A stretch of DNA of 64,000 nucleotides from Flavobacterium difficile (GTDB lineage Bacteria; Bacteroidota; Bacteroidia; Flavobacteriales; Flavobacteriaceae): the NCBI RefSeq assembly GCF_011392115.1, contig NZ_JAAJBT010000005.1, positions 186,001 through 250,000 on the forward strand. The letters are read 5' to 3'. The position numbers were made by a program, and so were the translations under genes. The notes beneath the pieces are model-generated. The model was not told the origin of the DNA. It saw only the letters and a list, made by a program, of their open reading frames with translations, and did no database searches. This document shows positions 38,889-55,947 of the stretch, piece by piece (position 1 is the stretch's first letter; each line of letters opens with the position of its first letter).

Positions 38889-38905
38889 GTACACCGAGTG
38901 GGAAT
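38889..38905. other. attL, displaced 17-bp copy of the tRNA-Leu 3' end
   Basis: GTACACCGAGTGGGAAT is identical to 55931-55947. Only the T-arm 3' half and acceptor strand are present, so this copy is not a tRNA gene. Confidence 0.88.
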
Positions 38906-39066: not shown

Positions 39067-39074
39067 TAGATTTG
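39067..39074 (+). promoter_or_regulatory. -7 element for the integrase gene
   Basis: TAGATTTG matches TAnnTTTG, 23 bases before the ATG at 39098. Just upstream are two direct ACAATAC copies (39041-39058) and an inverted one (near 39012-39019), possible integrase arm-type sites. Confidence 0.55.
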
Positions 39075-39097
39075 TAAACCTTAAAATATTAACCATA

Positions 39098-40345
39098 ATG
39101 GCAAGTATTAATTTTTTATACCGCTCAACTAAAGATAAAGCCAGCTTGGTAATAAGATTACTATACAGGCATCTTGGAAAGGACTATACTATAGGTACTA
39201 GTTCAAAAATAAAAGTAACCAAAACTTATTGGGATAAATATCACAACTCAACAAAATTAAAAGATACAGAATTAATTGCTGAACAAAACAGGGTAAAAGA
39301 TTTAATAAATAAACTGAATTTGTTTATACTTGAAAAATTTGATACTACAAACATTAAATTTATTGACAAAGCTTGGTTAGAATTACAAATTAATCAGTTT
39401 TATAATCCAGATGAATATCAAGATAATGGAGATAAAAACCCAGTAGATTTAACTGAATACTTTGATTATTACATTGAACTTTTTATTAATAATAGAAACT
39501 CCAAGAAAAAATTAAACACAACAAAAAACAAGATTATTAAATATGAAGAACTAATTAAAAACAAAATATCTGTTAAAGATATTGATTTAATGTTTTTTAA
39601 TAGATTTTATAGTTATCTCCAAAAATTAAACTATAATCAAAATACAATTATTGTTGATTTTACAAGCATTAAAACCATTTGTAAATTTGCAAAAAAGACT
39701 ATAAAAGTTAATGATGAAATTTTTGATTGGTCATTAAAAAAAGATAAAACATCAATTAATTACTTAACATTTGAAGAATTAGATATCATATCAAATTTAA
39801 ATGACTTACCAGATTATCTTGACAATGCCAGAGATTGGCTTATAATAAGCTGTTTCACAGGTCAAAGAGTTTCAGATTTTATGCGGTTTAATAAATCAAT
39901 GATAAGAGAACAAGTTGATACTAATGGCAAGAAAAAGAAACTTATAGAGTTCACTCAAAAGAAGACTAATCTAAACTTGCCACTAGCTTTGCATCCTAAA
40001 GTGTTGGAAATTTTAGAAAAAAGGGGTGGTGATTTTCCTAGACAAATCTCAGATGTTAAATACAATAAATACATTAAGCTAGTTGGGCAAAAAGCAGAAT
40101 TAAATGAGTTAGTTGAAGGTTCAAAACTTGATTCAGATTTACATCGAAAAGTAAAAAAGAAGTACAAAAAATACGAGTTGTTAACTTCTCATATTGGCAG
40201 AAGGTCTTTTGCTACAAATTTCTATGGTGAAATCCCAACATCACTTATAATGAGTGCTACAGGACATAGTACAGAGAAATCATTTTTAAATTATATAGGA
40301 AAAAATCACACAGATAGAGCAATGTCTTTAGCAAATTATTTTTAA
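39098..40345 (+). CDS. int: Tyrosine recombinase/integrase
   Basis: A 415-residue phage-type integrase with the Bacteroidetes layout: N-terminal arm-binding domain (about 1-75), SAM-like core-binding domain (about 115-215) and catalytic domain (about 235-410). The catalytic residues are visible: Arg in CFTGQRVSDF near 258, Lys in TQKKTNLNL, His-x-x-Arg in SHIGRRSFATN, His in ATGHSTEKSF, and the nucleophile Tyr in FLNYIG near 399. It reads inward from attL and should catalyse integration into tRNA-Leu(CAA). The next gene begins one base after its stop. Confidence 0.95.
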   Translation: MASINFLYRSTKDKASLVIRLLYRHLGKDYTIGTSSKIKVTKTYWDKYHNSTKLKDTELIAEQNRVKDLINKLNLFILEKFDTTNIKFIDKAWLELQINQFYNPDEYQDNGDKNPVDLTEYFDYYIELFINNRNSKKKLNTTKNKIIKYEELIKNKISVKDIDLMFFNRFYSYLQKLNYNQNTIIVDFTSIKTICKFAKKTIKVNDEIFDWSLKKDKTSINYLTFEELDIISNLNDLPDYLDNARDWLIISCFTGQRVSDFMRFNKSMIREQVDTNGKKKKLIEFTQKKTNLNLPLALHPKVLEILEKRGGDFPRQISDVKYNKYIKLVGQKAELNELVEGSKLDSDLHRKVKKKYKKYELLTSHIGRRSFATNFYGEIPTSLIMSATGHSTEKSFLNYIGKNHTDRAMSLANYF

Positions 40346-40346
40346 T

Positions 40347-41057: not shown

Positions 41058-41118
41058 GTAAAAACCTAATTTTTACCTAACCCAGCTTGCATCAATTATT
41101 AATTTAATCATTTTAATT

Positions 41119-41403: not shown

Positions 41404-41406
41404 ACA

Positions 41407-42165
41407 ATGAATGATTTTATTGAAGACTTTGAAGACGAAGATGATGACAAGGGTTTAAGTTTTGCTGAAAGCACCTATAATCTTTATCAAGGAGACAGCT
41501 GGGACTATGATGACAAATATATCATGAACCAAGAACCAAGAGAAGAGATTGATTTATATAATCAATCTCTAACATATGAAGAAAACTTTGAAGATGGCAA
41601 GAAAGTAAAATTCATTCTGGTGCCTTTATTTAAAGACGAAAAGGATAATGATACTAACTTTACTCCTCTTCTTAATGCTGGTTCAAAAATCATTATGAAC
41701 AGAAAAGAATTAGCTGGTACTTATAGTGAACAATTTCACTATATCATTGTTGATTATAATTCTATTTTTGGGTTAAGATTATTGTCTTTTCAAAGGTATA
41801 ACAACTTCTTTTCTTGTGATGAAAGAGTTTTGTTTGAAACATTTATTATAAAGTTTCATAGTTTTAAATTTAAAGAATTTTATATGTCAATTCCAACCAT
41901 CTACAAAGAACTTGGGATAAAAGAGACCAGAGCAAATACAATAATTAAAAGATTTATTGAATTAGGAATAATAACTAAAAAGGTCAAACCTCAAGTTGTT
42001 AATGACATTCCATCTCAAGTAAGTTATTATTGTGTTATTGCTGAAAAAGTAATTGAATTATTACCAATTATTTTTGATAACTTTTGTTCCTATGATGTTG
42101 AAAAAGATATTGAAAAATATCTTGAGCCTGCATTAAAAAAACAAACCAATAAAGAGCCTGAATAA
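41407..42165 (+). CDS. Winged-helix protein, possible replication initiator of the element
   Basis: A 252-residue protein with a strongly acidic N-terminus (DFIEDFEDEDDDKG). The C-terminal half holds a winged-helix candidate: FYMSIPTIYKELGIKETRAN then TIIKRFIELGIITKK, the pattern seen in plasmid and phage replication or regulatory proteins. No catalytic Rep motif is visible. The call rests on its place before an AT-rich region with a long-range inverted repeat (42205-42305). It could instead be a transcription factor. Confidence 0.65.
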   Translation: MNDFIEDFEDEDDDKGLSFAESTYNLYQGDSWDYDDKYIMNQEPREEIDLYNQSLTYEENFEDGKKVKFILVPLFKDEKDNDTNFTPLLNAGSKIIMNRKELAGTYSEQFHYIIVDYNSIFGLRLLSFQRYNNFFSCDERVLFETFIIKFHSFKFKEFYMSIPTIYKELGIKETRANTIIKRFIELGIITKKVKPQVVNDIPSQVSYYCVIAEKVIELLPIIFDNFCSYDVEKDIEKYLEPALKKQTNKEPE

Positions 42166-42174
42166 AGGCTCTTT
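42151..42174 (+). terminator. Terminator after the Rep-like gene
   Basis: AAAGAGCCT pairs with AGGCTCTTT around loop GAATAA and continues into T residues. Confidence 0.82.
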
Positions 42175-42204
42175 TTTAACATCCCCACACCTTGAAATCC
42201 CGCA

Positions 42205-42305
42205 ATAAAAGATAACTTATAATATATTAAGTATTTAAAAGTAATATTTAAAGCAAATAATTTATAAATAAAAAAAACATTAGTATTAAAGCAGTTATCT
42301 TTTAT
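42205..42305. repeat. 13-bp perfect inverted repeat around a very AT-rich stretch
   Basis: ATAAAAGATAACT at 42205-42217 is matched by its exact complement AGTTATCTTTTAT at 42293-42305. The 75 bases between them are almost all A/T. It lies directly after the Rep-like gene, in a gene-free stretch of 299 bp (42175-42473). A replication origin or regulatory looping site is possible. Confidence 0.6.
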
Positions 42306-42357
42306 AGGGTGTTTTCGGGGTATGGTATAAAAACAGAATTGAAAACTTAACACATAC

Positions 42358-42417
42358 ACTATATAGTTGATTATTTAGCTATTTTTATCAAAAAAACAAA
42401 CTATATAGTTGATTATT
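42358..42417. promoter_or_regulatory. Two palindromic operator repeats upstream of the toxin-antitoxin operon
   Basis: ACTATATAGTTGATTATT occurs at 42358-42375 and again, identical over 18 bases, at 42400-42417. The core ACTATATAGT is a perfect palindrome. The copies are spaced 42 bp (about four helical turns). The second ends 12 bases before a TACCTTTG -7 element (42430-42437), overlapping the expected -33 region, so binding there would block transcription. Confidence 0.72.
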
Positions 42418-42429
42418 AAAAATAATATT

Positions 42430-42437
42430 TACCTTTG
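42430..42437 (+). promoter_or_regulatory. -7 element of the toxin-antitoxin operon
   Basis: TACCTTTG matches TAnnTTTG, 36 bases before the toxin ATG at 42474, and lies directly after the operator repeats. Confidence 0.6.
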
Positions 42438-42473
42438 CAAAGAATTTAATTGTCAAACTTATTAAAATACAGA

Positions 42474-42809
42474 ATGGAATCTGAAGTAAAAAAGTTTCTT
42501 ACTGAATTTAAAATTAATATGAATATGTTTGGCATTCTTTATGCTAATAGAGATAAGAACACGCAAACTTTGGCTGATTTAGAGATTACACCAAAGTTTA
42601 GAGATAATATTCTTTTAAACCTTAATATAGAAGATTATTGTGAAGGACCTATAGACAATGACCAATATGGAAACAATCCAATGTGGGTTTTTGGAACTAA
42701 TGTAAAGAAAAATGAAATATATGTAAAGATTACATTGTTACCTAGTAAAGCATTTTGCATTTCATTTCATATCGCAGAGCACCCTTTAACATATCCTTTA
42801 AAAAAGTAA
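42474..42809 (+). CDS. MqsR-like RNase toxin
   Basis: A 111-residue protein from the ATG at 42474 (a TTG 24 bases upstream is less likely). Its layout resembles MqsR: an N-terminal helix, ILLNLNIEDYCEGP matching the NVIIGLSESDFYKS region, then MWVFGTNVKKNEIYVKITLL, like the VYLKIT strand. MqsR toxins cut mRNA, commonly at GC[A/U]. The following gene encodes an MqsA-like antitoxin 5 bases away, which supports the call. The likeness is by eye and moderate. Confidence 0.65.
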   Translation: MESEVKKFLTEFKINMNMFGILYANRDKNTQTLADLEITPKFRDNILLNLNIEDYCEGPIDNDQYGNNPMWVFGTNVKKNEIYVKITLLPSKAFCISFHIAEHPLTYPLKK

Positions 42810-42814
42810 ACAAA

Positions 42815-43825
42815 ATGAAAAGTCCAATTACAAATAAGGAAATGAACCTTATAAAAGAAAAAAAAATATTGGTTTTTAGAAAGGAAGAGTTTGAATACAC
42901 ACATCATAGTTATTTATGTGAAGATACAGGTGAGACTTTCACAGATACTAACCTTGACACATTAAATATAACACAAGTTTACAACCAATATTTAGACAAG
43001 TATAACCTTCCATTTCCTGAAGAAATTAATATTATTAGAAAAAAATATGATTTACCAGCAAATAAAATGGGACTTGTTTTAGGATTTGGTGTTAATACAT
43101 ATAGAAATTATGAAAACGGAGAAGTCCCAAGTTTAGCTAATGCGAAATTAATTCAATTAGCAAAATCTCCTGCATCATTTAAAACTCTTGTTCAAGAGAG
43201 TGAAGGTGTCTTTCTAGAAAAAGAAAAAGATGATTTATTAAGATATATTGATAGTTTAATTATAATTGAACAAAAGAATCATTTTATTATTGATTTTAAC
43301 ACTTTTGTTTTAGGAGAAAGTAATCCAGATATTTATACAGGATATAAGACTCCTAGTTTTCAAAAACTGACTGAAATGATTGTCTTTTTTACTGAAAGGC
43401 TATCTCCAATGAAAACAGTTATGAATAAACTTTTATTTTATTCTGACTTTCTTTTCTTTAAAAACAATTCATTTTCAATAAGTGGAACAAGATATGTTGC
43501 AATTGATTATGGTCCAGTACCTAATAATTTCAACACAATATTTGAAACAGTTCAAAGAAACAATGACATTGAATTAAAAGGTATAGATTTTGGAGATGGA
43601 TATTATGGAGAACAATTTAGTAATATCACAAACAGAGTTTTCAACCCAGAGTTATTTAATCAAGAAGAGATTAATACATTAGAAACAGTTTTAGCTAGAT
43701 TTAAGGATTCAAGCAGAAAAGAAATAGTTGATTTAAGTCACGAAGAAGATGCGTGGATTGTAAATTTTAATGCTGGAAAAAAAATGATTGAATACAGTTA
43801 TAGTTTTGGATTAAAACACATTTAA
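42815..43825 (+). CDS. Antitoxin with MqsA-like HTH and C-terminal Panacea (SocA/DUF4065-like) domain
   Basis: A 336-residue protein. Residues about 25-75 recall the MqsA N-terminal region (YLCEDTGETFTDT), although the zinc cysteines are not all present. An XRE-type HTH follows, IIRKKYDLPANKMGLVLGFG then NTYRNYENGEVPSLANAK, close to the MqsA pattern. The C-terminal part (about 190-325) matches the Panacea/SocA antitoxin fold: MNKLLFYSDFLFFKNNSFSI, YVAIDYGPVPNNFNTIFE and a late Trp. It starts 5 bases after the toxin stop. It probably neutralises the toxin and binds the paired palindromes upstream. Confidence 0.8.
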   Translation: MKSPITNKEMNLIKEKKILVFRKEEFEYTHHSYLCEDTGETFTDTNLDTLNITQVYNQYLDKYNLPFPEEINIIRKKYDLPANKMGLVLGFGVNTYRNYENGEVPSLANAKLIQLAKSPASFKTLVQESEGVFLEKEKDDLLRYIDSLIIIEQKNHFIIDFNTFVLGESNPDIYTGYKTPSFQKLTEMIVFFTERLSPMKTVMNKLLFYSDFLFFKNNSFSISGTRYVAIDYGPVPNNFNTIFETVQRNNDIELKGIDFGDGYYGEQFSNITNRVFNPELFNQEEINTLETVLARFKDSSRKEIVDLSHEEDAWIVNFNAGKKMIEYSYSFGLKHI

Positions 43826-43847
43826 GAAAATTAAAAAACATAAAATT

Positions 43848-43873
43848 AAAAGGGAGCAATTGCTCCCTTTTTT
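43848..43873 (+). terminator. Terminator after the toxin-antitoxin operon
   Basis: AAAAGGGAGCA and TGCTCCCTTTT form a perfect stem with a 2-base loop, followed by T residues. Confidence 0.88.
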
Positions 43874-43893
43874 TATTGATAAAAATTAAAAAA

Positions 43894-44739
43894 ATGCAAC
43901 TAAAAAAATCAGAAAGAAGTAAAACCAAGATAAAAATGGCTTTACAAGGACCTAGTGGTAGTGGAAAAACTACAAGTGCAATTTTAATAGCACAAGGATT
44001 AACAAATGGAAACCTAAGTAAGGTTGCCATTATTGATACAGAGAATGGTAGTTCAAACTTATATTCTCATTTAGGCAAATACAATGTTCTTTCATTGGAC
44101 AATCCACATTCACCTGAAAGATATATTGAAGCTATTGAGGTCTGTGAAAAAGCTGGAATGGAAGTAATAATTTTAGATAGCATATCACATTGCTGGTATT
44201 ACTTGCTTGATTATCATTCTTCCCTTGCTGGTAATACATTTACTAACTGGAATAAGGTAACTCCAAGACAAAAAGGATTTATTGATAAAATTCTTCAAAG
44301 TAATGTGCATATTATTTGCACAATGCGTGTAAAGCAAGATTATGTTTTAAATGAAAAGAATGGTAAAATAGTTCCTGAAAAGGTTGGTTTAAAAGCAATT
44401 CAAAGGGATGAAATTAGTTATGATTTTACTATTCTATTTGAATTAGATAATAAACATTATGCTTCTGCATCAAAAGACAGAACTAGTCTATTTGAAGGGA
44501 AACCTCAATTTGTAATAACTGCTCAGACTGGCAAGAAAATACTTAATTGGAGTAATAGCACTATGACAAAAGGAGAGCTTCAAATAAAGGTCTCTGAATG
44601 CAATAACATGAAAGAACTTACTACACTTTACAATGAGAACATTGATTTATCTAAGACAATTGAACAAGATTTTGTAAACAAACAAAAACTAATTAATGAA
44701 CTAACATCTAACTTAACACAAAATAGAAATGGAGCTTGA
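43894..44739 (+). CDS. RecA-fold ATPase, Sak4-like (AAA_24) phage/plasmid recombination protein
   Basis: A 281-residue P-loop ATPase. Walker A is GPSGSGKTTSAILIA near 22, and the Walker B-like EVIILDSISHCWY lies near 100. The single RecA-core size and the context fit Sak4-type proteins, which help single-strand annealing in phages and are often encoded near an SSB. I chose the ATG at 43894; a TTG 18 bases upstream is weaker. The last bases overlap the DUF3871 gene, so the two are translated together. A role in replication or recombination of the element is inferred. Confidence 0.78.
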   Translation: MQLKKSERSKTKIKMALQGPSGSGKTTSAILIAQGLTNGNLSKVAIIDTENGSSNLYSHLGKYNVLSLDNPHSPERYIEAIEVCEKAGMEVIILDSISHCWYYLLDYHSSLAGNTFTNWNKVTPRQKGFIDKILQSNVHIICTMRVKQDYVLNEKNGKIVPEKVGLKAIQRDEISYDFTILFELDNKHYASASKDRTSLFEGKPQFVITAQTGKKILNWSNSTMTKGELQIKVSECNNMKELTTLYNENIDLSKTIEQDFVNKQKLINELTSNLTQNRNGA

Positions 44740-45829
44740 AATAATTAAACCCAGCTATGATTTACCAGCAGAAAATGATAATCTTTCCTTTGCTGGTATG
44801 AAACAACCTTTTTTAGAGTTACCTAATGTTTTAAATAATAATTTGAATATTACAAGTAATCTTAACCTTACTTCTTCAAATCAAGTACAGAATTTGCCAA
44901 CTTTAAAAAACACTACGCCATTTATTACTGCAAATAGTGAAGATATAACTCTATCTATACTAAAAGAAAAATGTGTAATACCTGTTTTTACTAAAGATAA
45001 TGAAATTACAATTTCCCATTCAGATTTTATTGAAACCTCTATTTCTGCTATCAAAAAAATGTTTCCTAATGAAACTTTTGATGAGCCTGAAATTAGAGTA
45101 AGTCATCAAATCAAAGGCAGAGTTCCTGAAGCAATTCATAAAAATGTGAAAGACTTGCAAGAGAATGAAAAAACTCAATATTTTGAAAGAATGGGGTTCA
45201 TTGTAAGAATACCTAGTATAACTGAAGACATAAATGGTAATAAATTAGCATTAACTATTGGAGGTGTAAGGTCATACAACTTGGAAAACCTCTACAATAA
45301 AAAAACCTATGAAAAATTTAAATTCTTTATCGGATTTCAAAACATGGTTTGTTGCAATCTTTGTATCAATACAGATGGATTTCAAAGTGAAATTAGAGCA
45401 ATGAGTTTTTTAGATTTAGAAGAAAAAATAATGCAAGTAATCCAAAGCTACCAAGCTAATGAGCATTTAAATTCAATGAAAAATCTATTAGAATATTCAT
45501 TAACTGAAAGAGACTTTGCTCAAATTATTGGTAAAAGCAGATTGTATAATTATCTTCCAAGAAAAGAAAAATCCTTATTACCTGAATTACTACTTAATGA
45601 TGGTCATTTATCTACAATTGCAAAAGACTACTATCAAGATGAAAGTTTTTGCAGAAATTCAGATGGAAATATTAATATGTGGGAGTTTTACAACTTACTT
45701 ACAGGAAGTAATAAATCATCCTATTTAGACACATTCCTTGACAGAGGAGTAAATGCCTTTGGCTTCGCCACAGGTGTATCAAAAGCGCTGAGTGATAGTT
45801 CTACCAGCTATTCTTGGTTTTTGAGTTAA
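44729..45829 (+). CDS. DUF3871-family mobile-element protein
   Basis: A 366-residue protein. The N-terminal part is low-complexity and Asn-rich (about 1-70). The conserved core contains EIRVSHQIKGRVPEAIHK, LALTIGGVRSYNLENLY and NMVCCNLCINTDGF. The C-terminus RGVNAFGFATGVSKALSDSS with the ending SYSWFLS is what I recall for DUF3871, found in Bacteroidetes plasmids and integrative elements and remotely like DUF932. The function is unknown. It overlaps the ATPase gene by 11 bases, which suggests shared work in DNA processing or plasmid-like replication. Confidence 0.7.
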   Translation: MELEIIKPSYDLPAENDNLSFAGMKQPFLELPNVLNNNLNITSNLNLTSSNQVQNLPTLKNTTPFITANSEDITLSILKEKCVIPVFTKDNEITISHSDFIETSISAIKKMFPNETFDEPEIRVSHQIKGRVPEAIHKNVKDLQENEKTQYFERMGFIVRIPSITEDINGNKLALTIGGVRSYNLENLYNKKTYEKFKFFIGFQNMVCCNLCINTDGFQSEIRAMSFLDLEEKIMQVIQSYQANEHLNSMKNLLEYSLTERDFAQIIGKSRLYNYLPRKEKSLLPELLLNDGHLSTIAKDYYQDESFCRNSDGNINMWEFYNLLTGSNKSSYLDTFLDRGVNAFGFATGVSKALSDSSTSYSWFLS

Positions 45830-45833
45830 AAAG

Positions 45834-45863
45834 AACCCGACTCTATTTATTTAGGGTTGGGTT
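45834..45863. terminator. Terminator between the convergent DUF3871 and SEFIR genes
   Basis: AACCCGAC pairs with GTTGGGTT (one G-U pair) around an AT-rich loop, with A/T-rich flanks on both sides. Confidence 0.65.
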
Positions 45864-47309
45864 TTATCTGTTTATACCAATGTCTTCTATTTTAACCAAT
45901 TCATGTAAAAATGGAATTGAATCATGACCTCTACCATATCTAATTCTATCTTTATCTTTTTTACCTTCTTTGTATTCACCAAGTAATTTTTTTAAATCTT
46001 CTTTTGAGTTAACATCAAATATTGATTTTACTTTTTCAAAATGACGCTCAGAGCTTAATCTTTCAAAAAAATCAAAATTACTATAGTTTTCTTTATATAA
46101 ATAAGTTGTTGGAAACCAAGAATCTCTATAATCATTACCCGCAAATAAATCACCAATATAATGACATAGCAAATCAGCAAAAACCATATCGCCCTTTTTA
46201 ACTTTATCCGAAAGATTTGTAATTATAAAATGACCAAAACCTGTAATTCTATTAAATTTAGTTTCAAAATACCTTTCAAGATTAGTGTGATATGTGTATA
46301 ATTCCGTGTACCTTTTAGGCTCTGTTTTAGTGTAAACATCAATATAATAGTATTTAGAATGTAATAGTTCTTCTACCAACTTATAATTCTTGTTTTTTAG
46401 AGAAATTGATATTGTATATAAAAAAAGTTCTTGAAAGATTATTTTATAGATATCATAATTAATAGAATTCCAACTTCCAGTATCTACTCTTGGTCTGCTA
46501 TACAAAGATTTTTTTTCGAAAAAATTTATTAAGTTGTCTACATCTATTTCGTATTCCGTTTTAGTAATGATAAAAAGGAAATCTATAAAATCTTCTCTCA
46601 AAATTTTATAAGATTTCAAACCATCTATTAATTCTTCAACGAAATCATTTAGAATATGTGTTGTGCTTTTTAATTCAAAATCCCACAATGACTCTAAAAA
46701 AGTGTCTAAAAACTGAATAGAGTAACTATTTATTTTTTCAGGATTTTTTTTTAACTGATTGTCTAAAGTTCTAACAATAGAATTTGTTGCTGTATTATTC
46801 GTAACAGATTCAGTTATATATAGAGGTACTTTTGTCCCTAACTTAGGCTTAGGTATTGATGGAGCTTCTAAAATATTCCTTAATAACTCTTCATAACTTT
46901 CTTCAAAGTATTCTTCATTACTAAAGTCTATATATTTTCTTGACGATAAGTAGATTGGTAAATAAGGGTTGTTATCGGAATCCCTTTCAATAACAATAGG
47001 AATAAATTTTTCTTGTTTTTGATTATTGTATACTTCTGAAGTAATAATTTGAGTTTCTGTACCTACTCCTCCATCTCTATTATCAGATTTGTTTTTATAG
47101 TTTTTGTCACAAATAATTAGAACTCTATAGATATCATCAGCTTGAACCATACTCTCCATAAAATGATGAACATCATTTCCTTCTTTCAAACTCCATTTGT
47201 CTAAAATCACATCAACAGTATCATCCATCAATCTTTTACCTAAATTAACTACCCAATCCTGATGTTCTTTTAACCCCCAACTATATGATATAAATATTTT
47301 TTTTGACAT
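45864..47309 (-). CDS. SEFIR/TIR-domain protein, probable defence effector
   Basis: A 481-residue protein. Residues 1-150 form a SEFIR (TIR-like) domain: KIFISYSWGLKEHQDWVVNL, VDVILDKWSLKEGNDV, HHFMESMVQADDIYRVLIIC and a conserved glycine-rich DGGVGTETQII segment. TIR-like domains in bacterial immunity often degrade NAD+ or make a signal; which applies here is unknown. The remaining ~330 residues are helical, with no recognised domain, and may sense or bind partners. It is the last gene of a three-gene minus-strand operon, 13 bases after the TOPRIM gene. The domain and context point to abortive infection. Confidence 0.82.
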   Translation of the reverse strand: MSKKIFISYSWGLKEHQDWVVNLGKRLMDDTVDVILDKWSLKEGNDVHHFMESMVQADDIYRVLIICDKNYKNKSDNRDGGVGTETQIITSEVYNNQKQEKFIPIVIERDSDNNPYLPIYLSSRKYIDFSNEEYFEESYEELLRNILEAPSIPKPKLGTKVPLYITESVTNNTATNSIVRTLDNQLKKNPEKINSYSIQFLDTFLESLWDFELKSTTHILNDFVEELIDGLKSYKILREDFIDFLFIITKTEYEIDVDNLINFFEKKSLYSRPRVDTGSWNSINYDIYKIIFQELFLYTISISLKNKNYKLVEELLHSKYYYIDVYTKTEPKRYTELYTYHTNLERYFETKFNRITGFGHFIITNLSDKVKKGDMVFADLLCHYIGDLFAGNDYRDSWFPTTYLYKENYSNFDFFERLSSERHFEKVKSIFDVNSKEDLKKLLGEYKEGKKDKDRIRYGRGHDSIPFLHELVKIEDIGINR

Positions 47310-47322
47310 TATTACTTGTTTT

Positions 47323-47976
47323 TTAATTATATAAAAAAGTATCCAAAAAAGATTTTAATTTTTTTAAGTCCCCGATACTTTCATGATTTAAGTCCCAATA
47401 ATCAGCATTTTTATAATTTCTAAACCTTGCTCTTGACTCTAAATTAACTGTATGTAAATAATACCCAACTTTATCTTTTAATTCAGCAAACCTAATATTT
47501 GGAACAGCTAGACTTGACAAACAAGCCTGATGTGATTCAATGCAATTATAAACAACTTCTTTATCCGATGGGATTAATTTTCTAAGTAAGTCTTCTACTA
47601 TCCCATCATCATTATTATTTGGCCATAAAAAATAATCAAAATCAACATTTTTATCTCTCTTAATCCCTTCTAGTTTTTGTTTACAAGAGTCAAATCCTTT
47701 ATTTCCATTTCCTAACTCAGTATAGTCTGCATCAAAAATAACAACATTAACACCATTTAAGGCTTTATTATCTTCAAGTTGAGATATGTAAATTTCATTA
47801 GAAAGTTTGCTACAACCGCCAACATCTATAATTTCAATTCCGTTTGAAAATTTAATATCTAATTTAGAATTTTTTTTATCGACTCTAGTTGACTCAAAAC
47901 CATAAAAAAGTTCAATACAATCTGCAATAAAGACTTGGTCAGTAATTCCTTCACAAAATATTTTAATTTTACTCAT
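47323..47976 (-). CDS. Small stand-alone TOPRIM-like protein (DUF3226/DUF4435-like)
   Basis: A 217-residue protein with a TOPRIM-like pattern: the strand and acidic residue IKIFCEGITDQVFI (Glu 9) and a DxD-type motif VVIFDADYTELG near 83, followed by the acidic segment NNNDDGIVEDLL near 125. These fit the metal-binding Glu and Asp-x-Asp of the TOPRIM fold. In OLD nucleases and Gabija GajA the TOPRIM is fused to the ATPase, and in PARIS it is separate (AriB). Here the ATPase is at the C-terminus of the neighbouring 1517-residue protein, 2 bases away, so it may act in trans as the nuclease. The family is assigned by eye. Confidence 0.72.
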   Translation of the reverse strand: MSKIKIFCEGITDQVFIADCIELFYGFESTRVDKKNSKLDIKFSNGIEIIDVGGCSKLSNEIYISQLEDNKALNGVNVVIFDADYTELGNGNKGFDSCKQKLEGIKRDKNVDFDYFLWPNNNDDGIVEDLLRKLIPSDKEVVYNCIESHQACLSSLAVPNIRFAELKDKVGYYLHTVNLESRARFRNYKNADYWDLNHESIGDLKKLKSFLDTFLYN

Positions 47977-47978
47977 AA

Positions 47979-50900
47979 TTATTCACCTCCTCTAAGTTCA
48001 ACTCCATCTTCAAATGCTAAATTAAAGCTCTCAAATTCAAAAGAACGAACTTTTAATTTGTTGACAAATTTCATTTGTACAACTCTTGATAATTTCTGAT
48101 ATTCTGCTCCAAAATCATCTTCATTTAACACATCAGTAAAGAATTGTATACATTCATCATTATGAGTGGTAGCAATAATTTGAGTATTATCTTTTTTAGC
48201 TATATTTAGTAATATTCTCCAAAATTCTTTAAATCTTGAAAAATGAATACCTGCATCAATTTCATCAATAAGTAACCTTTTACCCTTATGTAGTGTTAAT
48301 AATAATAAAATTCTGAAAAGCTTATTAGCACCTTCTCCATATTGATGTAGTGGTCTATCTACCACATAATCTCTATCTCTAATATCAATTGAACCATCAA
48401 GTCTAACATATACACTTTCAACATTAGGGATGAAAAGTTTTAAATTTGCTAAAAAGATACTTTCTAAACTTCTGTTACTTCTAATCTCTTTGTCATAGAC
48501 AGATGCAAGTTCTTGACCAAATCCTTTACCATAAGCAATAAATGGCATCTTAACTCCATTATCATATGGAAGATTATTTAAAAATAAAAAGTCTGATTTA
48601 TCATAACTAATTATATTTTGACCTTCATTCCCATTTAAATTTTCATCAAACTTAATTTGATAATCTGAAAAAAATCTATTGTTATATACTCTAAATCCAA
48701 TATTTTCTTTTTCCTCACTACATCTTTCATAATCATTTAAAAAACTTTTATTTAAATTAAAATACCAAGATACTCCTTCAGAATTTTCAGACTTATCAGG
48801 ATGAATATTTATCCTGTCAATATAAGAAAAAGCTAACCTTTCAAGATAATCTTTTTTATCTTCTGTAAATAATAACGCCTCAAGAAGTGATGTTTTGCCA
48901 ATATTGTTATCTCCAACAATAAGATTAACTAATCCTAAATTTTTAATTTCTAATTTTTGAAATTTTCTAAAATTACTAATTTCTATATCTGAAAGATGTT
49001 CTGACTTAATCTTTTTAAGTTGGTCTGGAAATTTCTTAATATTTTCAATTTCAGTAATAGTAAAAGGAATATATTTTGATTTTTTAAGTTTGGAAAAAAC
49101 TTGATAATCTTTATTTATTGTTTCAATATCAATTCCAGCTTCAAAATTATTTTTTGCCCATCTTTCTATAATAAAATTATACATTGAATTATCAATATTA
49201 TTATATACTATTAATTTAGAATAGAAATCTGCCAACTCAACTTGTCTTCCTTTTTCTGAAAAGGATTTTTCAACCTTTCTAGATATTTCTAATAACATTA
49301 CATCATTGTTGTTGACAACAATAAAAGCCATATAAGCATAAAGATTTACATATATGTTTTTGAAAACCTTTTCCTCAAGATTGTTTTCAATATAAACTGA
49401 AACAATTTCATTTGCAATTTCCTCTTTATCACAATCTGTATCTTTAACAATTCTTCCTTGATAGATAATGATTTCCTCAACAATCCCTTTCTTTTTGGCT
49501 AATTCAAGCTTAGATTTTAAGTAATTTTCTTTCTCAATATTAGCTCTTTCAAACGCATCAATTGCTAATTGATATTTCTTCAGTGTGAAGTATTTGTTTC
49601 CTACTTGTTCTAATATGTTTTCATCACCTTTATGGCAATTTTCAGTTAAGATTTCTGCAATCTTCCCAATTCTCTCACTGTCAAATTCATCAACTAGTAA
49701 ATCAGCGATTAATTTTAGAGCTTGCTTTCTCCAAATAGTCTTGTTAAGAAGCTTACTTAATTCAACTAAATTATCATATAGAATATTTAAACTTGATTCT
49801 GAAAGTGATTTTTCAATAAATAACTTGGCAATAGTTAATATTAATTGTTGCTTTGGGTTTTTGATTTCTACATTGAGACTTACTAAATCTATCCAAAGCT
49901 GACCAGTCCAAAGCGAAGATATTGCCATTTCAACACCCTCAGCACCAACTTCTTTCTTTAGATAGTATTCAGATGCTTTCTTCCAGTTATCTTTAATTTC
50001 TTCAATTTTTGCAAGACATATGTAATACTCTTTTTTATTTCCAAGTTTTATAAAGTGACTTGAAGCAACTTGAAGAAGAGGTATGTTTTTTTCCAAGACG
50101 CCTTGGTCTTTTTGTCTATTTGCATCGTTCTCTAAAATATTAGATGAACTTTGAATTATTTCCCCTGAATCAAAAATTATTATTTCTTCAAAATTAGTTG
50201 GCTTTGGCTTTATTTGATTTGCCCAATCAGACTTAAGGTATTTGTAAATTAGAGGCTTCCAAAAACCTTCTTTTGAGGTTGAACTATCAATTATAACAAG
50301 TTCAGCTTGTGCTCTTGTCACTGCTACGTAAAGCTTATTATACAAATATCTACTCTCGTAAACACCCGAATTTTTATTAATAATATAATCACCAAATCCA
50401 TAAATTACCACTTCACTAAAATCAAGTCCTTTGGCATCTACAGCAGAAATAATATTCTCAAAATTCTTTAAAATTGGATTTGTTTCTTTATAACTCTCAA
50501 TTTCATCATAATTTACAGGAACAATAATTGTCTTGAATTCAATTTTTCTTTGAAGGGATTCATCATTTGCAAAATCATCAAAATCTACAAAAACATTTAA
50601 ATGCTCATTCTCAAACACTACTGGTCTTTTAGAAGTTTGGGGTTGTTTAATATTTGCTGAAAATTCTTGTTTTCTGTAATTCTGAATAGCATTAGCAACA
50701 TTAACGATAGCTTGAGAAGACCTATAATTGTAAGTAGGAGTAAATTCTAATGTGCTAGCATCTAATTTATATCCAGTTTTACTATTTGTTAATTCATTAT
50801 AAATCATTGCTGTTAATGCTTCTGACCTAAATCCAGTTGGATTAACTGTTTGTAAAGCATCACCCGCAAAAACAATCGGAAATTGTTCAACGTTACTAAG

Positions 50901-52532
50901 ATTGAATTTTGCATATGAAGATAGTTTCATTATGAAATCTAACTCAACCCTGCTAAAATCTTGAGCTTCATCACAGAAAATCACATCATAACTTTTAGTA
51001 ATAGATATGTTATTATTTATGAATTTTATTAGTTTTATTTTATCCCAATAGTTTTCTTCATTAAGAAGTTTATTATAAAATGGAAAAATAATTTCTTTTT
51101 CAATTCCCTTTAAATCTTCTAATGAAATTAACTCTTTTCCTTCTTTTGGCATTTCATCAAGATAGTTATCACTAGTGATTTGACAATCTAAACTATTTCC
51201 AAAAACATAAGTTGATAATGTAAACCAAACTAACTCAGCAGAAAATTTATTTTTTATATGAGTTGCAATTTTTGATTGTTCATAAAGCAACTTAAATTTT
51301 GAAAAGTTTAAATACTTATCTGAACTAAACAATTCATTATCATCTGGCAATAAACTTAATAAGAAATTTTTAAAAGGGTGAAAATGTTTATCAACGTTAA
51401 CTATAGCAATATCTTCACTAGACAGATCAAATTCAGGATTATGGAGTAATAAATCGTAAACAGAAGCTTTAGTATGTTCTAAAAGCTTTTCGTTTTCTGT
51501 TAAAAAGATTACATCTCCTGTAATTTCTCCAGCATATTTATAGTAATATACATTTGCAAAAAGATAATATAACATTGTGGACTTTCCACTTCCTGCCTGA
51601 CCATTTATGTACTTTGGAAATTTAAAATTCTTTAAAAATTCAGTTTGTTCTGGTAAAAGAGAAAGGTTTCCTAATTCATTATTTTTTTCAATTTTAGTCC
51701 AAAGGTCTGGGTTGTTTAATGTCCAACCTGGATATGCTTTTAATGAAACACTACTAACATCATGTAATGAACTAAACTTTTTATCCTTATCAAATCTAAA
51801 TTTCATTACATTATTCCAATGAGCAGTTTGTGTTTTTATATTTCCACCATTATGTAAAATATAAATTGAGTTATTATCAATCAACACCTTAGTATACAAA
51901 ATCCCTATATCATTTAAAATGACACTAAATGTCTCAAAACCATCACCTTTATTTACAGATTTAATAAGTAACTTATTTTCAGACAAAACTTCTTTTAATG
52001 TTAGTAAATAAAGTTTTGTTTCATCACTTTTCATACCTTCATCTGAAGAATTATTCATTGCGAATTTAACCCATTCTTCAGTTTCATATATATCATAATC
52101 AACTCTTAACTTATATTCATTCTGCCAATTTAAAAGTGTTTGCGGAGGTTGATTTGTGTTGTGTTCTACAACTATGTTGTTGATTATAAAATTCGTTTTA
52201 AATTTTTCAATTTCATCTTCTTGCAATTCATTATATAAGGTCCATTTTCCATCTCTTATCTCAACATAATCTTGCAATCCATTTTTAAATCCCCTTACAA
52301 AGTAGACATTCAAAATTTCATTATTAATTTCAATGTTTTTCTCTTCCAATATAATTTCAGCATATGGAGTCTTAATTTTGAAAACAAAGATACCTTTTGT
52401 AAATGGAGCTATTTTTCCAATTCCTTTTAAATTTTCTCTATTTGAATATTCTTTAAAATATTTTTTTACAATAGAGTCAATTTCTGGCTCAGTATTGTTA
52501 ATATAATTTTGGCAGTAATGAAAGTGTAGCAT
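47979..52532 (-). CDS. UvrD-like helicase fused to OLD/AAA15-like ATPase
   Basis: A 1517-residue protein. An N-terminal region (about 1-290) has no recognised domain. A UvrD-type SF1 helicase follows, with Walker A INGQAGSGKSTMLYYL near 310, DEAQ box IFCDEAQDFSRVE near 520, FAGDALQTVNPTG, YNYRSSQAIVNVAN and motif VI YVAVTRAQAELV near 737. The middle (about 790-1180) looks like TPR-type helices. The C-terminal ATPase (about 1185-1500) has Walker A VGDNNIGKTSLLEA near 1210, signature-like YGEGANKLFRILLL, Walker B RLLIDEIDAGIH near 1422 and the His motif IIATTHNDE. No TOPRIM is fused after the ATPase; the next gene supplies one. The components recall Gabija. Confidence 0.88.
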   Translation of the reverse strand: MLHFHYCQNYINNTEPEIDSIVKKYFKEYSNRENLKGIGKIAPFTKGIFVFKIKTPYAEIILEEKNIEINNEILNVYFVRGFKNGLQDYVEIRDGKWTLYNELQEDEIEKFKTNFIINNIVVEHNTNQPPQTLLNWQNEYKLRVDYDIYETEEWVKFAMNNSSDEGMKSDETKLYLLTLKEVLSENKLLIKSVNKGDGFETFSVILNDIGILYTKVLIDNNSIYILHNGGNIKTQTAHWNNVMKFRFDKDKKFSSLHDVSSVSLKAYPGWTLNNPDLWTKIEKNNELGNLSLLPEQTEFLKNFKFPKYINGQAGSGKSTMLYYLFANVYYYKYAGEITGDVIFLTENEKLLEHTKASVYDLLLHNPEFDLSSEDIAIVNVDKHFHPFKNFLLSLLPDDNELFSSDKYLNFSKFKLLYEQSKIATHIKNKFSAELVWFTLSTYVFGNSLDCQITSDNYLDEMPKEGKELISLEDLKGIEKEIIFPFYNKLLNEENYWDKIKLIKFINNNISITKSYDVIFCDEAQDFSRVELDFIMKLSSYAKFNLSNVEQFPIVFAGDALQTVNPTGFRSEALTAMIYNELTNSKTGYKLDASTLEFTPTYNYRSSQAIVNVANAIQNYRKQEFSANIKQPQTSKRPVVFENEHLNVFVDFDDFANDESLQRKIEFKTIIVPVNYDEIESYKETNPILKNFENIISAVDAKGLDFSEVVIYGFGDYIINKNSGVYESRYLYNKLYVAVTRAQAELVIIDSSTSKEGFWKPLIYKYLKSDWANQIKPKPTNFEEIIIFDSGEIIQSSSNILENDANRQKDQGVLEKNIPLLQVASSHFIKLGNKKEYYICLAKIEEIKDNWKKASEYYLKKEVGAEGVEMAISSLWTGQLWIDLVSLNVEIKNPKQQLILTIAKLFIEKSLSESSLNILYDNLVELSKLLNKTIWRKQALKLIADLLVDEFDSERIGKIAEILTENCHKGDENILEQVGNKYFTLKKYQLAIDAFERANIEKENYLKSKLELAKKKGIVEEIIIYQGRIVKDTDCDKEEIANEIVSVYIENNLEEKVFKNIYVNLYAYMAFIVVNNNDVMLLEISRKVEKSFSEKGRQVELADFYSKLIVYNNIDNSMYNFIIERWAKNNFEAGIDIETINKDYQVFSKLKKSKYIPFTITEIENIKKFPDQLKKIKSEHLSDIEISNFRKFQKLEIKNLGLVNLIVGDNNIGKTSLLEALLFTEDKKDYLERLAFSYIDRINIHPDKSENSEGVSWYFNLNKSFLNDYERCSEEKENIGFRVYNNRFFSDYQIKFDENLNGNEGQNIISYDKSDFLFLNNLPYDNGVKMPFIAYGKGFGQELASVYDKEIRSNRSLESIFLANLKLFIPNVESVYVRLDGSIDIRDRDYVVDRPLHQYGEGANKLFRILLLLTLHKGKRLLIDEIDAGIHFSRFKEFWRILLNIAKKDNTQIIATTHNDECIQFFTDVLNEDDFGAEYQKLSRVVQMKFVNKLKVRSFEFESFNLAFEDGVELRGGE

Positions 52533-52631
52533 AATTAAATCTTATAATAATTTTTAAATATATAAAATCCTTTTTAGTTATTATTTTTTTTCAAAAAAAA
52601 TTTAAAGAGGTGAATTTACAAAGCACCTCCT

Positions 52632-52659
52632 CAAATATAGATACCCCCTTTATAATCAA
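52632..52659 (-). promoter_or_regulatory. Promoter of the helicase-TOPRIM-SEFIR operon
   Basis: On the minus strand, TATATTTG at 52632-52639 matches TAnnTTTG, with a TTG (52657-52659) 17 bases upstream in the -33 position. The ATG at 52532 is about 100 bases downstream. Two ATACCCCC motifs (52641 and 52664, spaced 23 bp) surround the element and could be regulator sites. Confidence 0.6.
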
Positions 52660-52697
52660 TTCAATACCCCCACCCATTTATAGGAAAACTAAAATTA

Positions 52698-52748
52698 TAC
52701 CAGCAGAAAATAATATCATATTGATTTATAGATATTCTACTGCTGGTA
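52698..52748. promoter_or_regulatory. Long hairpin in the leader of the 52798 gene
   Basis: TACCAGCAG (52698-52706) pairs with CTGCTGGTA (52740-52748), and inside it AATATC and GATATT continue the stem after a small internal loop. It lies 50 bases upstream of the ATG at 52798, with CTTTTTA following, so it could terminate or attenuate transcription on the plus strand. Confidence 0.55.
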
Positions 52749-52797
52749 CTTTTTAATGGTTCTAAAAATATGTATTCAACTCAAAAATTATTAAAAA

Positions 52798-53217
52798 ATG
52801 GTAAGAATTGTTAACTATCAAAAGAGAACAACAGAGGAAGGAAAAGATTTCTTTGTGTTAGAGATTCAATCAGGAATTTCAATGGTAAAATCAAAAGAAA
52901 CAGGTAAGTTTTATGCAACAGCAAATAAGGCTTCAATTTCATCTACTTTTGATGAATTAACCTGTCAGGCATTAATTGGCACAGAGTTGCCAGGCAAAGT
53001 AGAAAAGGTTGATTGTGAGCCCTATAATTATACAATTAAAGATACAGGTGAAGTCATTACTCTAGCCCATAGATTTGAGTATGTTGATGAAGCTGAAAAT
53101 CAAGAAAAGGCTATTACACAAAAAGTAGAAAGAAGTAGCACTACAGTTGATGAATTTGTTAGTAGTATGAATGAAGAAAATTCATTCTCAACAAAAGAAG
53201 AGTTAGAACATGCTTAA
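52798..53217 (+). CDS. Small unknown protein, possible single-stranded DNA-binding function
   Basis: A 139-residue acidic protein, predicted mainly beta in its first 100 residues (VRIVNYQKRTTEEGKDFFVL, GELPGKV-like ELPGKVEKV) and with a disordered acidic tail (about 100-139). This is compatible with an OB-fold, but I do not recognise a family. A Sak4-like ATPase and a RadC-like protein in the same element make a ssDNA-binding role plausible. It is preceded by a long hairpin and followed by a strong terminator, so it is a separate transcript. Confidence 0.6.
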   Translation: MVRIVNYQKRTTEEGKDFFVLEIQSGISMVKSKETGKFYATANKASISSTFDELTCQALIGTELPGKVEKVDCEPYNYTIKDTGEVITLAHRFEYVDEAENQEKAITQKVERSSTTVDEFVSSMNEENSFSTKEELEHA

Positions 53218-53236
53218 CAGCTTGTAGTATTAATTT

Positions 53237-53272
53237 GTGTCTGAGATTTATTTAAATATTTATCTCAGACAC
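53237..53272 (+). terminator. Terminator after the 52798 gene
   Basis: GTGTCTGAGAT pairs perfectly with ATCTCAGACAC around an AT-rich loop, followed by seven T. Confidence 0.88.
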
Positions 53273-53291
53273 TTTTTTTATTTTTTTAGAT

Positions 53292-53732
53292 ATGGAAAAC
53301 TTATTAGCAGAAATACAGGTTAGCTATAATACAAACAGTAGTATAAAACCAAAAATTGAATCAAGTCATAATGCCTACGAAATATTACTTGCTTCTTGGT
53401 TTGCTGGTACTATAGAATTACAGGAAGAATTTAAAGTTTTACTTTTGAATAGAGCAAACCAAGTTTTAGGAATATATAACCTTTCAAAAGGAGGTACTGC
53501 TGGGACTGTTGTTGATATTAAAATATTATTTGCTGTAGCTTTAAAATGTAATGCCACTTCAATAATTGTGGCTCATAATCACCCAAGTGGAAGATTGAAG
53601 CCAAGTCTTCAAGACATAGAAATTACGAAAAAAATTAAAAGTGCTTCTGAACTATTAGACATTAAACTATTAGACCATCTAATTATTTCAAAAAATGGTT
53701 ATTATAGTTTCACTAATGAATCAACTTGCTAA
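53292..53732 (+). CDS. RadC-like JAB/MPN-domain protein
   Basis: A 146-residue protein consisting of the RadC C-terminal JAB domain without the N-terminal HhH region. The metal-binding JAMM motif is visible: the Glu in the N-terminal part, then HNHPSGRLKPSLQD near 95-110, with His-x-His and the Asp. The ending HLIISKNGYYSFTNE is typical of the family. Such short RadC proteins are frequent in Bacteroidetes mobile elements. The role in DNA repair is historical and doubtful, but a DNA-transaction function is likely. Confidence 0.88.
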   Translation: MENLLAEIQVSYNTNSSIKPKIESSHNAYEILLASWFAGTIELQEEFKVLLLNRANQVLGIYNLSKGGTAGTVVDIKILFAVALKCNATSIIVAHNHPSGRLKPSLQDIEITKKIKSASELLDIKLLDHLIISKNGYYSFTNESTC

Positions 53733-53858
53733 ATTTATGCATGTGTGAACTACACTAAAACAACGCTCTAAACAAGTAAATTAAAAATTGTAAAATAATG
53801 CAGATTAATATTAATAGCGTTTTCTTAATTTTATCTTTTATGACAACTTAGATTAAAT

Positions 53859-54434
53859 ATGATACAGAAAAATCTGAATGAATATCCTCTTGAATATCAA
53901 TCACTAGTATTAAAAGAAATTTTGTTTTTAGAATTTCCTTTTGAACTTCAGGATATGATTGATTATGAAAGCAATATTGATTTCAAGATTTTGTCTAAAA
54001 ATCATCAGATACATTGGTCAATAGAAATATTAGAACACTTTAGAGATAAATGGGATTGGACAGCAATTCAGACCAATCCCTTTGTCTATTCCTATTGTAA
54101 TATAGGTTATTTTTTTAAAGAACTTGTAAATGCAAAACCAATAAAATGTAGATGTGAGTTAAAACTAGAGTATTGTAATAAAGACCAATTGTGTTCTCCT
54201 AATTATAATTATATCTTATTAAGACCAACAAACATAAACCCTATACATGAAAAATTTACTAATTGGGTTAAGTTTTTAATTGAAGAGAAATTTTTCAATA
54301 AGACTTCAATTGGCATTTTCTTTTTGTATGACGCAGTCATTGATGATTTAAACAATTATGATGAGCTTCAATTACCAGCAGAAAAAAATGATTGTATTAA
54401 CAATGACTTAGATGAAGAAGAAGTGCCTTTTTAA
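53859..54434 (+). CDS. Unknown protein with an SSB-like acidic C-terminal tail
   Basis: A 191-residue protein. Residues about 40-75 contain NIDFKILSKNHQIHWSIEIL then EHFRDKWDWTAIQTNP, a repeat-like WS/DKWDW motif. A CRCELKLEYC cluster near 94-105, with a further Cys later, could bind zinc. The C-terminus ends in NNDLDEEEVPF, which looks like the SSB C-terminal peptide (acidic residues then Pro-Phe) that recruits repair and replication proteins. The body of the protein is not a known OB-fold, so it may mimic or block SSB contacts. The final residues overlap the start region of the convergent XRE gene by 4 bases. Confidence 0.65.
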   Translation: MIQKNLNEYPLEYQSLVLKEILFLEFPFELQDMIDYESNIDFKILSKNHQIHWSIEILEHFRDKWDWTAIQTNPFVYSYCNIGYFFKELVNAKPIKCRCELKLEYCNKDQLCSPNYNYILLRPTNINPIHEKFTNWVKFLIEEKFFNKTSIGIFFLYDAVIDDLNNYDELQLPAEKNDCINNDLDEEEVPF

Positions 54435-54646
54435 AAGCGAAATAATTCTATAGGTTCTATCCCAAGATTTTTAGAAACTACTTCAATAGTTGCTAAAGTT
54501 GCATTAGCTCTACCAGCCTCTAATCTTGACATATTACTAGGTTCAATACCGCATAGGTCAGCAAGTTCCTGCTGTGAAATATTCTTCTCAACACGAATTT
54601 CTTTTATTTTTTTACCTACCCTTTTTTGCAACAAATTTTCCAACAC
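54431..54646 (-). CDS. XRE-family HTH repressor
   Basis: A 71-residue protein made almost only of a Cro/C1-type HTH domain: IKEIRVEKNISQQELADLCG then IEPSNMSRLEAGRANATL. It is a likely regulator of the divergent membrane protein gene and of itself, because a 14-bp perfect palindrome lies 5 bases before its ATG and a degenerate copy lies 49 bp beyond it. Confidence 0.88.
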   Translation of the reverse strand: MLENLLQKRVGKKIKEIRVEKNISQQELADLCGIEPSNMSRLEAGRANATLATIEVVSKNLGIEPIELFRF

Positions 54647-54650
54647 TTAT

Positions 54651-54713
54651 TATCTTATAAGATATATTCAAAATTTGTTCTATTTTTGTTAAATCCACAT
54701 ATCGTAAAAGATA
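54651..54713. promoter_or_regulatory. Operator pair and promoter controlled by the XRE repressor
   Basis: TATCTTATAAGATA at 54651-54664 is a perfect palindrome. TATCGTAAAAGATA at 54700-54713 matches it at 12 of 14 positions. Between them, TATTTTTG at 54681-54688 is a -7 element for the plus-strand gene at 54737. The second operator lies about 11 bases after it, near the expected start of transcription, which fits repression. Confidence 0.68.
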
Positions 54714-54736
54714 AGAATTGATTTAAAAATAACTGT

Positions 54737-55048
54737 ATGAATAAAATTCAGATATTATTCGCAAGTGTATTTACAATGATTATAAGCCTGATTGTTTCTT
54801 GCTTTGTTTATACAGAAGAGATTAGGGAAATTATATCTAATAAGTACTACTTAATTATATCATTTTTGGCATTAATCATTATCATAAATATTTATTACTC
54901 TGAATTTAGTGATAGAGATTTAGAACAAAAAAAAGATTTAAAATACTTTGGAAGTATTTCAATTGCACTTTTTACTATAGCAGGAATTGTGTTTACTATG
55001 CACATACTCTTATTTGTAGTTGAATGGATTGAACACTTACTAGAATAA
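54737..55048 (+). CDS. Small membrane protein of unknown function
   Basis: A 103-residue protein with three hydrophobic segments (about 6-24, 38-54, 73-98) and a short charged loop (SDRDLEQKKD) between the second and third. No family is recognised. It is under the promoter and operators described at 54651-54713, so it is probably repressed by the XRE protein. It lies 17 bases before the TPR protein gene. Confidence 0.68.
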   Translation: MNKIQILFASVFTMIISLIVSCFVYTEEIREIISNKYYLIISFLALIIIINIYYSEFSDRDLEQKKDLKYFGSISIALFTIAGIVFTMHILLFVVEWIEHLLE

Positions 55049-55065
55049 ATGAAAAAACAATAAAT

Positions 55066-55770
55066 ATGAAAAAAATAGTTTTAAAAATTACTTTGTTATT
55101 ATTTACAATAACAATTCAAAGTCAAGAAGTTGAGAAACTCTCTAAAGTAGAGTTTTACCTAAAAGGAGTTGAAAATATGGCAAAGAATGATTATTCAAAG
55201 GCAATTACATATTTTACAAATGCTCTTAACTGCAATTATACTAAACCAACAGAAAATAAATTGGATGAATATGAAATCTATAATTATAGAGGTCAAGCCC
55301 ATTTTTACATGAAAGATTTTCAAAATGCAATGAAAGATTACAATTCTGCTATACAAAATTCAAATCCTGAAGAAATAAAAGTTGAAGTTTACAATAATAG
55401 AGGGTTCCTAAAAATGCAATTATCAGATTTTAGAGGTGCAATTTTAGATTATGATTTTGTTATTGAAAGATATCATACTGTAAGCAAAAAATATGGAATA
55501 CAAATTGCTTCAACAGTATATAAAGAACTTGTAAGAACAGCATATTCAGATAAATCATTTTGTAACTATAAACTGAAAAATATAGATGAAGCATTATATA
55601 ATTCTGAACAAGCATTAATTATAGACATAAATGATGGACAAGCTTATTGTATAAGAGGTGCATGTAAATATAGTCAAGGTAAAAAAGAAGAAGCTTGTTT
55701 AGATTTTAGTAAATCAGGTGAATTAGGTTATCAATATGCATATAACTACATCAAAAAATATTGCAATTAA
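55066..55770 (+). CDS. Secreted TPR-repeat protein
   Basis: A 234-residue protein with a signal peptide (MKKIVLKITLLLFTITIQSQ) and about four to five TPR units, for example YSKAITYFTNALNC, YNYRGQAHFYMKDFQNAMKD and YNNRGFLKMQLSDFRGAILD. The last unit carries Cys-rich positions (AYCIRGACKYSQGKKEEACL). It follows the small membrane protein and is the last gene before the right end of the element. The partner or function is not evident. Confidence 0.82.
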   Translation: MKKIVLKITLLLFTITIQSQEVEKLSKVEFYLKGVENMAKNDYSKAITYFTNALNCNYTKPTENKLDEYEIYNYRGQAHFYMKDFQNAMKDYNSAIQNSNPEEIKVEVYNNRGFLKMQLSDFRGAILDYDFVIERYHTVSKKYGIQIASTVYKELVRTAYSDKSFCNYKLKNIDEALYNSEQALIIDINDGQAYCIRGACKYSQGKKEEACLDFSKSGELGYQYAYNYIKKYCN

Positions 55771-55886
55771 TATCTAAATTTAAGAAGTTTCAACTTTATT
55801 TGAATGTTATTAAATTTTGCTCTTTGAAAGATTTTTGAATAAATTGGCTCAAACAATACAATAACCATACAAATACAAAAATAAAA

Positions 55887-55927
55887 AAACCCTAACACTT
55901 TGATTTTTAATACAAAAGTTAGGGTTT
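55887..55927 (-). terminator. Hairpin between the element's last gene and tRNA-Leu
   Basis: AAACCCTAAC pairs with GTTAGGGTTT around an AT-rich loop. It lies just downstream of the tRNA 3' end on the minus strand and ends in A/T residues. It may end tRNA transcription and shield the element. Confidence 0.75.
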
Positions 55928-55930
55928 AAA

Positions 55931-55947
55931 GTACACCGAGTGGGAAT
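55931..55947. other. attR, in the tRNA-Leu(CAA) 3' end
   Basis: GTACACCGAGTGGGAAT is identical to attL at 38889-38905. It covers the acceptor 3' strand and part of the T-arm, so insertion left the tRNA intact. Confidence 0.88.

Follow-up and report, generated by a model that had tools for sequence, protein, structure and literature searches.

The window, a 64,000-nucleotide stretch of the Flavobacterium difficile genome, contains a gene (53859..54434, plus strand) for a 191-aa protein which has no known family and carries a C-terminal tip of the SSB type. The gene lies in an integrative island, and the tip is retained in the intact relatives of the protein while the linker before it drifts. 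The SSB tip, which reads DDDIPF in E. coli, is the chief address label in the ssDNA metabolism of bacteria. We suggest tentatively, giving this slightly less than an even chance, that the tail protein (as we call it below) is an accessory adaptor of the island, whose tip would dock host ssDNA-processing enzymes and bring them to the island ssDNA. The original prediction, which proposed a recruiter of host repair proteins or a competitor of host SSB, appears partly supported at the level of sequence.

The ORF starts with ATG, and its product ends in NNDLDEEEVPF followed by TAA, so the predicted SSB-like tail DLDEEEVPF (54405..54431, plus strand) is indeed present. The dN/dS value of 0.14, obtained against the 90%-identical copy of F. 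terrigena, means that the ORF behaves as a real gene, and the only match of the protein in its own genome is itself. No family was found for it in Pfam, PHROGs or NCBIfam at E ≤ 1 or in PADLOC at E ≤ 0.01, and the profile of the five intact homologues had no match among PDB sequences at E ≤ 1. The rest of the protein had been predicted not to resemble an OB fold; this agrees with the lack of any SSB or OB family match in Pfam, PHROGs or NCBIfam (E ≤ 1), although the AF2 model built from two sequences, with a mean pLDDT of 38, adds nothing on the fold itself.

Two elements were recognised in the core of the protein. Residues 26-76 (53934..54086, plus strand; delimited by tblastn ranges and a profile search) represent one copy of the WDW repeat: they match individual units of a repeat which long proteins carry in multiple copies, and the best single unit reaches an E value of 4.5e-10 with a profile of six sequences, among them the broken copy L025. 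Residues 97-112 (54147..54194, plus strand) carry the pattern C-x-C-x6-C-x5-C, in which all four Cys are invariant among the five intact sequences and which has a similar counterpart in L025; judging from these residues, it is a possible zinc site. WDW-repeat proteins occur elsewhere as well (L005, L029, L020, L139; one on an Acinetobacter plasmid). One of them, L005, also holds a part resembling a helicase (PF02689, E 2.6e-6, slightly below the family cut-off), and in genome G788 a WDW-repeat ORF is located shortly upstream of a gene for a protein of the OB-like kind described below.

The tail-protein family is small. A tblastn search of 398 Flavobacterium genomes (E ≤ 0.01) matched 27 of them, of which 7 have a homologue of the tail-protein type, the remaining matches being short, weak or of the WDW-repeat type; among 397 family genomes, 11 were matched at the same threshold, one by the gene itself and 10 by sequences that are short, weakly similar or of the repeat type. 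No viral homologues were detected in IMG/VR with either the single sequence or the alignment of the five intact copies, and no phage homologues in 50,697 phage records at E ≤ 0.1. The plasmid search returned one record at E 0.09, which covers residues 25-73 alone and is a WDW-repeat match.

The intact copies, namely the window protein and four relatives at 90, 48, 48 and 39% identity, end in EEEVPF, EDEVPF, REDVPF, REDVPF and KDEIPF; thus, the check that had been proposed for the tail, whether homologues keep the final Pro-Phe, gave a positive result in 5/5 cases, with the last four residues always fitting [DE][VI]PF. Homologues that lack the tail are solely the two broken copies (L025, interrupted by a stop, and L026, with a frame change) and a weak partial match in G745, which covers residues 39-189 through five stops and whose 144-residue open frame ends in EIPVE. 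In the alignment of the five intact sequences, P190 and F191 are the sole invariant columns beyond N165, and position 188 is D or E in every row. When the three independent lineages are compared, invariant columns make up 2 of 24 in residues 164-187 versus 2 of 4 in residues 188-191. The tip is therefore retained while the linker before it diverges.

The gene had also been predicted to be encoded by a mobile element, and its surroundings bear this out. The island is about 17 kb long and occupies a tRNA-Leu site: it extends between two 17-bp direct repeats, the left one (38889..38905) being the proposed island end and the right one (55931..55947) lying within the 3' end of tRNA-Leu(caa). It contains a tyrosine recombinase (39098..40345, plus strand; PF13102, E 2.5e-07), which is followed by a Sak4-like AAA_24 ATPase (43876..44739, plus strand; PF13479, E 6.2e-18; phrog_124, Sak4-like, E 2.6e-11) and a DUF3871 protein (44729..45829, plus strand; PF12987, E 7.1e-132). 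The defence-like cargo beside DUF3871 (45864..52532, minus strand) encodes bSEFIR and DUF3226 proteins as well as a protein of 1517 aa that has UvrD-like and AAA-like parts. Next come an OB-like protein of 139 aa, which has no PF tip and is a candidate ssDNA-binding protein on the basis of its AF2 model (52798..53217, plus strand), RadC with its JAB domain (53292..53732, plus strand; PF04002, E 2.2e-38) and the tail gene, which converges on a Cro/C1-type HTH gene (54431..54646, minus strand; PF01381, E 1.4e-11). Accordingly, the tail gene closes the row [OB-like]-[RadC]-[tail gene] and is separated by about 9 kb from the gene of the Sak4-like annealase.

In seven related loci, chosen for the presence of the tail-protein family (five loci) or of other tipped proteins in the same position (two loci), the Sak4-like, DUF3871, OB-like and RadC genes follow the window order in 7/7 cases, the distance from DUF3871 to the OB-like gene being 6.7-9.9 kb; in one of these loci, L235, the DUF3871 gene is matched at its two ends alone. 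Each of the seven upstream stretches contains one tRNA gene, and the tyrosine recombinase of the window had no match there at E ≤ 1e-4. The window island (38889-55947) may be described as a member of a class with a fixed frame, Sak4-DUF3871 and OB-RadC, around variable cargo.

The OB-like protein is more widespread, being present in 60 of the 398 genus genomes. Its AF2 model, built from eight sequences, has five strands and a helix that lies between the third strand and the fourth, a topology compatible with an OB fold, and its block means are 81-93 over residues 1-100. The PDB structures listed as its matches are mostly SSB, PrgE and PriB together with some ribosomal and other proteins, and all these matches are weak: none reaches E ≤ 0.001, TM is about 0.3 or less, and the best VIA Z is 4.4 (PrgE). 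The protein ends in FSTKEELEHA. Many of its homologues (L084-L122) have a C-terminal FSxNG motif, in place of which the window copy reads FSTKEE, and a 114-aa Sak4-adjacent form has a different ending.

The position after RadC, which we call the slot, was surveyed by scanning 66 loci, one of which has no OB-like match. In the 41 OB-RadC loci, among which the window itself is not counted, the next ORF is on the minus strand in 18 and is co-directional and at least 60 aa long in 23; in a looser listing, a minus-strand ORF comes first also in L091, L102, L107 and L108, so that the slot is possibly empty in 22/41. Since at least 18 of the 41 loci leave the slot unoccupied, the tail protein should be regarded as accessory and dispensable for the island, and not as a part of its core machinery. 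The tail-protein family fills 5 of the 23 occupied slots (four intact copies and one broken). Among the other 18 slot proteins, three end in PF (L086, L094 and L114), whereas in the background this applies to 4 of 525 ORFs (Fisher p 0.001). The comparison is post hoc and includes related rows on both sides, and the four background ORFs are all alike. L102, which ends in PF but is 1 kb away, was counted as a non-hit, and L114 is, by eye, the sole PF-ender among its six look-alikes.

To what extent is such an ending specific in Flavobacterium? In the window genome, the pattern [DE][DE]xPF-stop has four DNA matches, of which two terminate an ORF of at least 30 aa: the tail protein and a DUF3127 protein. 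In ten Flavobacterium genomes, 54 DNA matches yielded 26 ORFs of at least 60 aa (48 matches were read, and the other six were left out because the matched letters rule out such an end; the 42-aa ORF L197 was dropped as too short). By Pfam, these ORFs include 11 SSB, 11 DUF3127, one DnaB, two without a match (L158 and L185) and the tail protein. As 22 of the 26 are SSB or DUF3127, the ending represents a specific signal in this genus. A DUF3127 protein (PF11325), presumably an OB-type ssDNA-binding protein, with the ending DDLPF occurs in 10/10 genomes, and of 12 genomes tested for their main SSB, 10 have one that terminates in PF; hence, pockets reading the tip should exist in these bacteria. 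The single DnaB helicase (L183, G401:C28) ends in DDDDDDMPF, so that a replicative helicase, too, has a tip like that of SSB.

The main SSBs of the window genome (L004, G000:C9:37882-38196) and of F. terrigena (L222, G560:C13:31585-31899) end in DFDSLE, without PF. Where this is the case, the DUF3127 protein with its DDLPF may have assumed the role of the hub. We did not adopt the idea that the tip of the tail protein substitutes for the missing tail of the host SSB, because SSB ends in PF in the tail-protein carriers G564, G567 and G651 and because DUF3127 retains its tip in the window genome.

The SSB-type tip, as far as it can be recognised from sequence, is also present in at least one non-SSB family that is unrelated to the tail protein. 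The slot protein L094 was searched in 378 genus genomes, giving 31 match rows in 26 genomes, all of which were read. They belong to an unannotated Flavobacterium family, mostly of 130-170 aa (L250-L279; the L094 family below); among nine members that were aligned, most are about 27-32% identical to L094. Where the domain is C-terminal in an intact ORF, 11 of 12 proteins end in PF, the twelfth (L273) ending in FDDLRI. Three of the four broken or partial copies also end in PF (L266, L274 and L275, but not L271), as does one (L278) of the 13 ORFs with sequence beyond the domain; two further rows are cut by contig ends. We used this 31-row count rather than the alignment of nine rows, since all nine were picked from the PF-ending members and their invariant P and F prove nothing alone. 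The genes are located in varied places, and some of the ends are weakly acidic (GLNLPF, KSNMPF, HECPF). The nine aligned members have no convincing curated family, with stray matches of one or two members at best E values of 0.0058-0.078. Common descent of this family with the tail-protein family is unsupported (hhalign probability 0.4). A by-eye reading of a Cas9 gene beside L253 was rejected, since the 373 residues available had no Pfam match.

We suppose that in the adaptor the variable and probably disordered linker (approximately residues 164-187) displays the tip, which consists of acidic residues, V or I, Pro, Phe and the free carboxylate. The tip may dock into the SSB-tip pocket of host PriA, RecO, RecG or RecQ, while the N-terminal WDW unit and the Cys4 site would bind something else, either the island DNA or an island protein. 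Host enzymes would thus be brought, along with the adjacent OB-like protein and RadC, to the ssDNA arising from excision, replication or repair of the island, presumably to its benefit. For the docking on host ssDNA enzymes we rely on two described systems. Loading of Sak4 in phage HK620 requires the terminal six residues of SSB (NDYPPF; PMC5928155). In Klebsiella PriA, the tip pocket is formed by Trp82, Tyr86, Lys370, Arg697 and Gln701, a pocket which has not been conserved in the S. aureus enzyme (PMC5531588). In PriA of the host, the residues aligned with these five are W, Y, K, N and I, so that three of five are kept; the two that replace Arg and Gln fall in a weakly aligned stretch. The adaptor reading is favoured by the retained tip, the near confinement of such endings to SSB and DUF3127, the adjacent OB-like gene and RadC, the PF ends of other slot proteins and the L094 family; against it stand the empty slots, the two broken copies, the two differing pocket positions, the small size of the family, and the ends without PF of L243 (a relative of L086) and of the other look-alikes of L114.

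A free tip could also occupy the SSB-tip pockets, by which host repair or defence enzymes would be kept off the island ssDNA, or host recombination would be blunted during establishment. We hold this competition with SSB to be unlikely, though far from negligible. It is compatible with the mobile nature of the island and with the variable, often empty slot (at least 18 of 41 loci), as well as with the tip being placed on a protein without a recognised domain; in addition, the cargo adjoining the tail gene is defence-like, which suggests that these islands take part in such conflicts. However, a competitor of the abundant SSB would need high expression, and the conserved core with its repeat unit and four Cys suggests a second binding job and not a bare decoy. 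It is possible, too, that the target lies inside the island. The tip might then recruit the Sak4-like annealase, as if the HK620 SSB were split, with its OB-like domain and its tail residing on two proteins. The presence of the Sak4-like gene in the island and in 7/7 fetched relatives, the OB-like partner without a PF tip and the need for the last six SSB residues in HK620 Sak4 loading (PMC5928155) are in line with this arrangement, but many loci have the OB-like gene and RadC without the tail protein, G619 and G695 hold the Sak4-like gene without the tail-protein family, and many OB-like homologues carry their own C-terminal FSxNG instead, which makes it decidedly improbable in our opinion.

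Finally, the ending may be a C-terminal motif with another purpose, such as a turnover signal or a site for an unrelated partner, or its likeness to SSB may have arisen by drift. The L094 family gives some reason for this suggestion, with its partly weakly acidic ends, the intact L273 lacking the tip and the varied places of its genes. Still, we consider it quite unlikely, because the acidic xPF endings in ten genomes belong so predominantly to SSB and DUF3127 (22/26), and retention in 5/5 and 11/12 cases is not easily explained by drift.

The adaptor reading can be placed among several known systems. The tail protein resembles bacterial SSB (PF00436) in the terminal tip, acidic and then hydrophobic-Pro-Phe, and in the variable linker before it, but differs by the WDW unit and the Cys4 site, the SSB domain not being recognisable by sequence. 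With HK620 (PMC5928155), the island shares the combination, within a single element, of a Sak4-type gene, a candidate ssDNA-binding protein and a tip of the SSB type; in the phage the tip is on SSB itself, whereas in the window island it is on a separate non-SSB protein. The Flavobacterium DUF3127 protein has the same kind of tip (DDLPF) in the same genomes, while the tail protein has no DUF3127 domain. The L094 family is like the tail protein in its non-SSB core with Cys and its mostly xPF ends, and one member occupies the same island slot. Among the open-access literature matches listed, we found no report of a non-SSB protein of a mobile element with an SSB tip.

At least two unrelated cores, the tail-protein family and the L094 family, thus keep the tip, and the unrelated tipped proteins sit in mobile islands and in varied other loci. 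One can suggest, although with clear reservations, that the Flavobacterium SSB tip is an exchangeable docking module, acquired independently by several unrelated non-SSB proteins for plugging into the host ssDNA-processing hub. If mobile elements do tag unrelated proteins in this way, a search for the tip outside SSB would find recruiters or blockers of repair enzymes, and the tip would also offer a ready assay by peptide competition.

The slot protein L086 has fewer relatives, with matches in 6 of the 388 genomes searched. Its broken paralogue in its own genome ends in KVPF, a relative at 34% identity (L243) ends without PF, and the longer proteins that match it end otherwise; some longer proteins contain L094-like and L086-like parts together.
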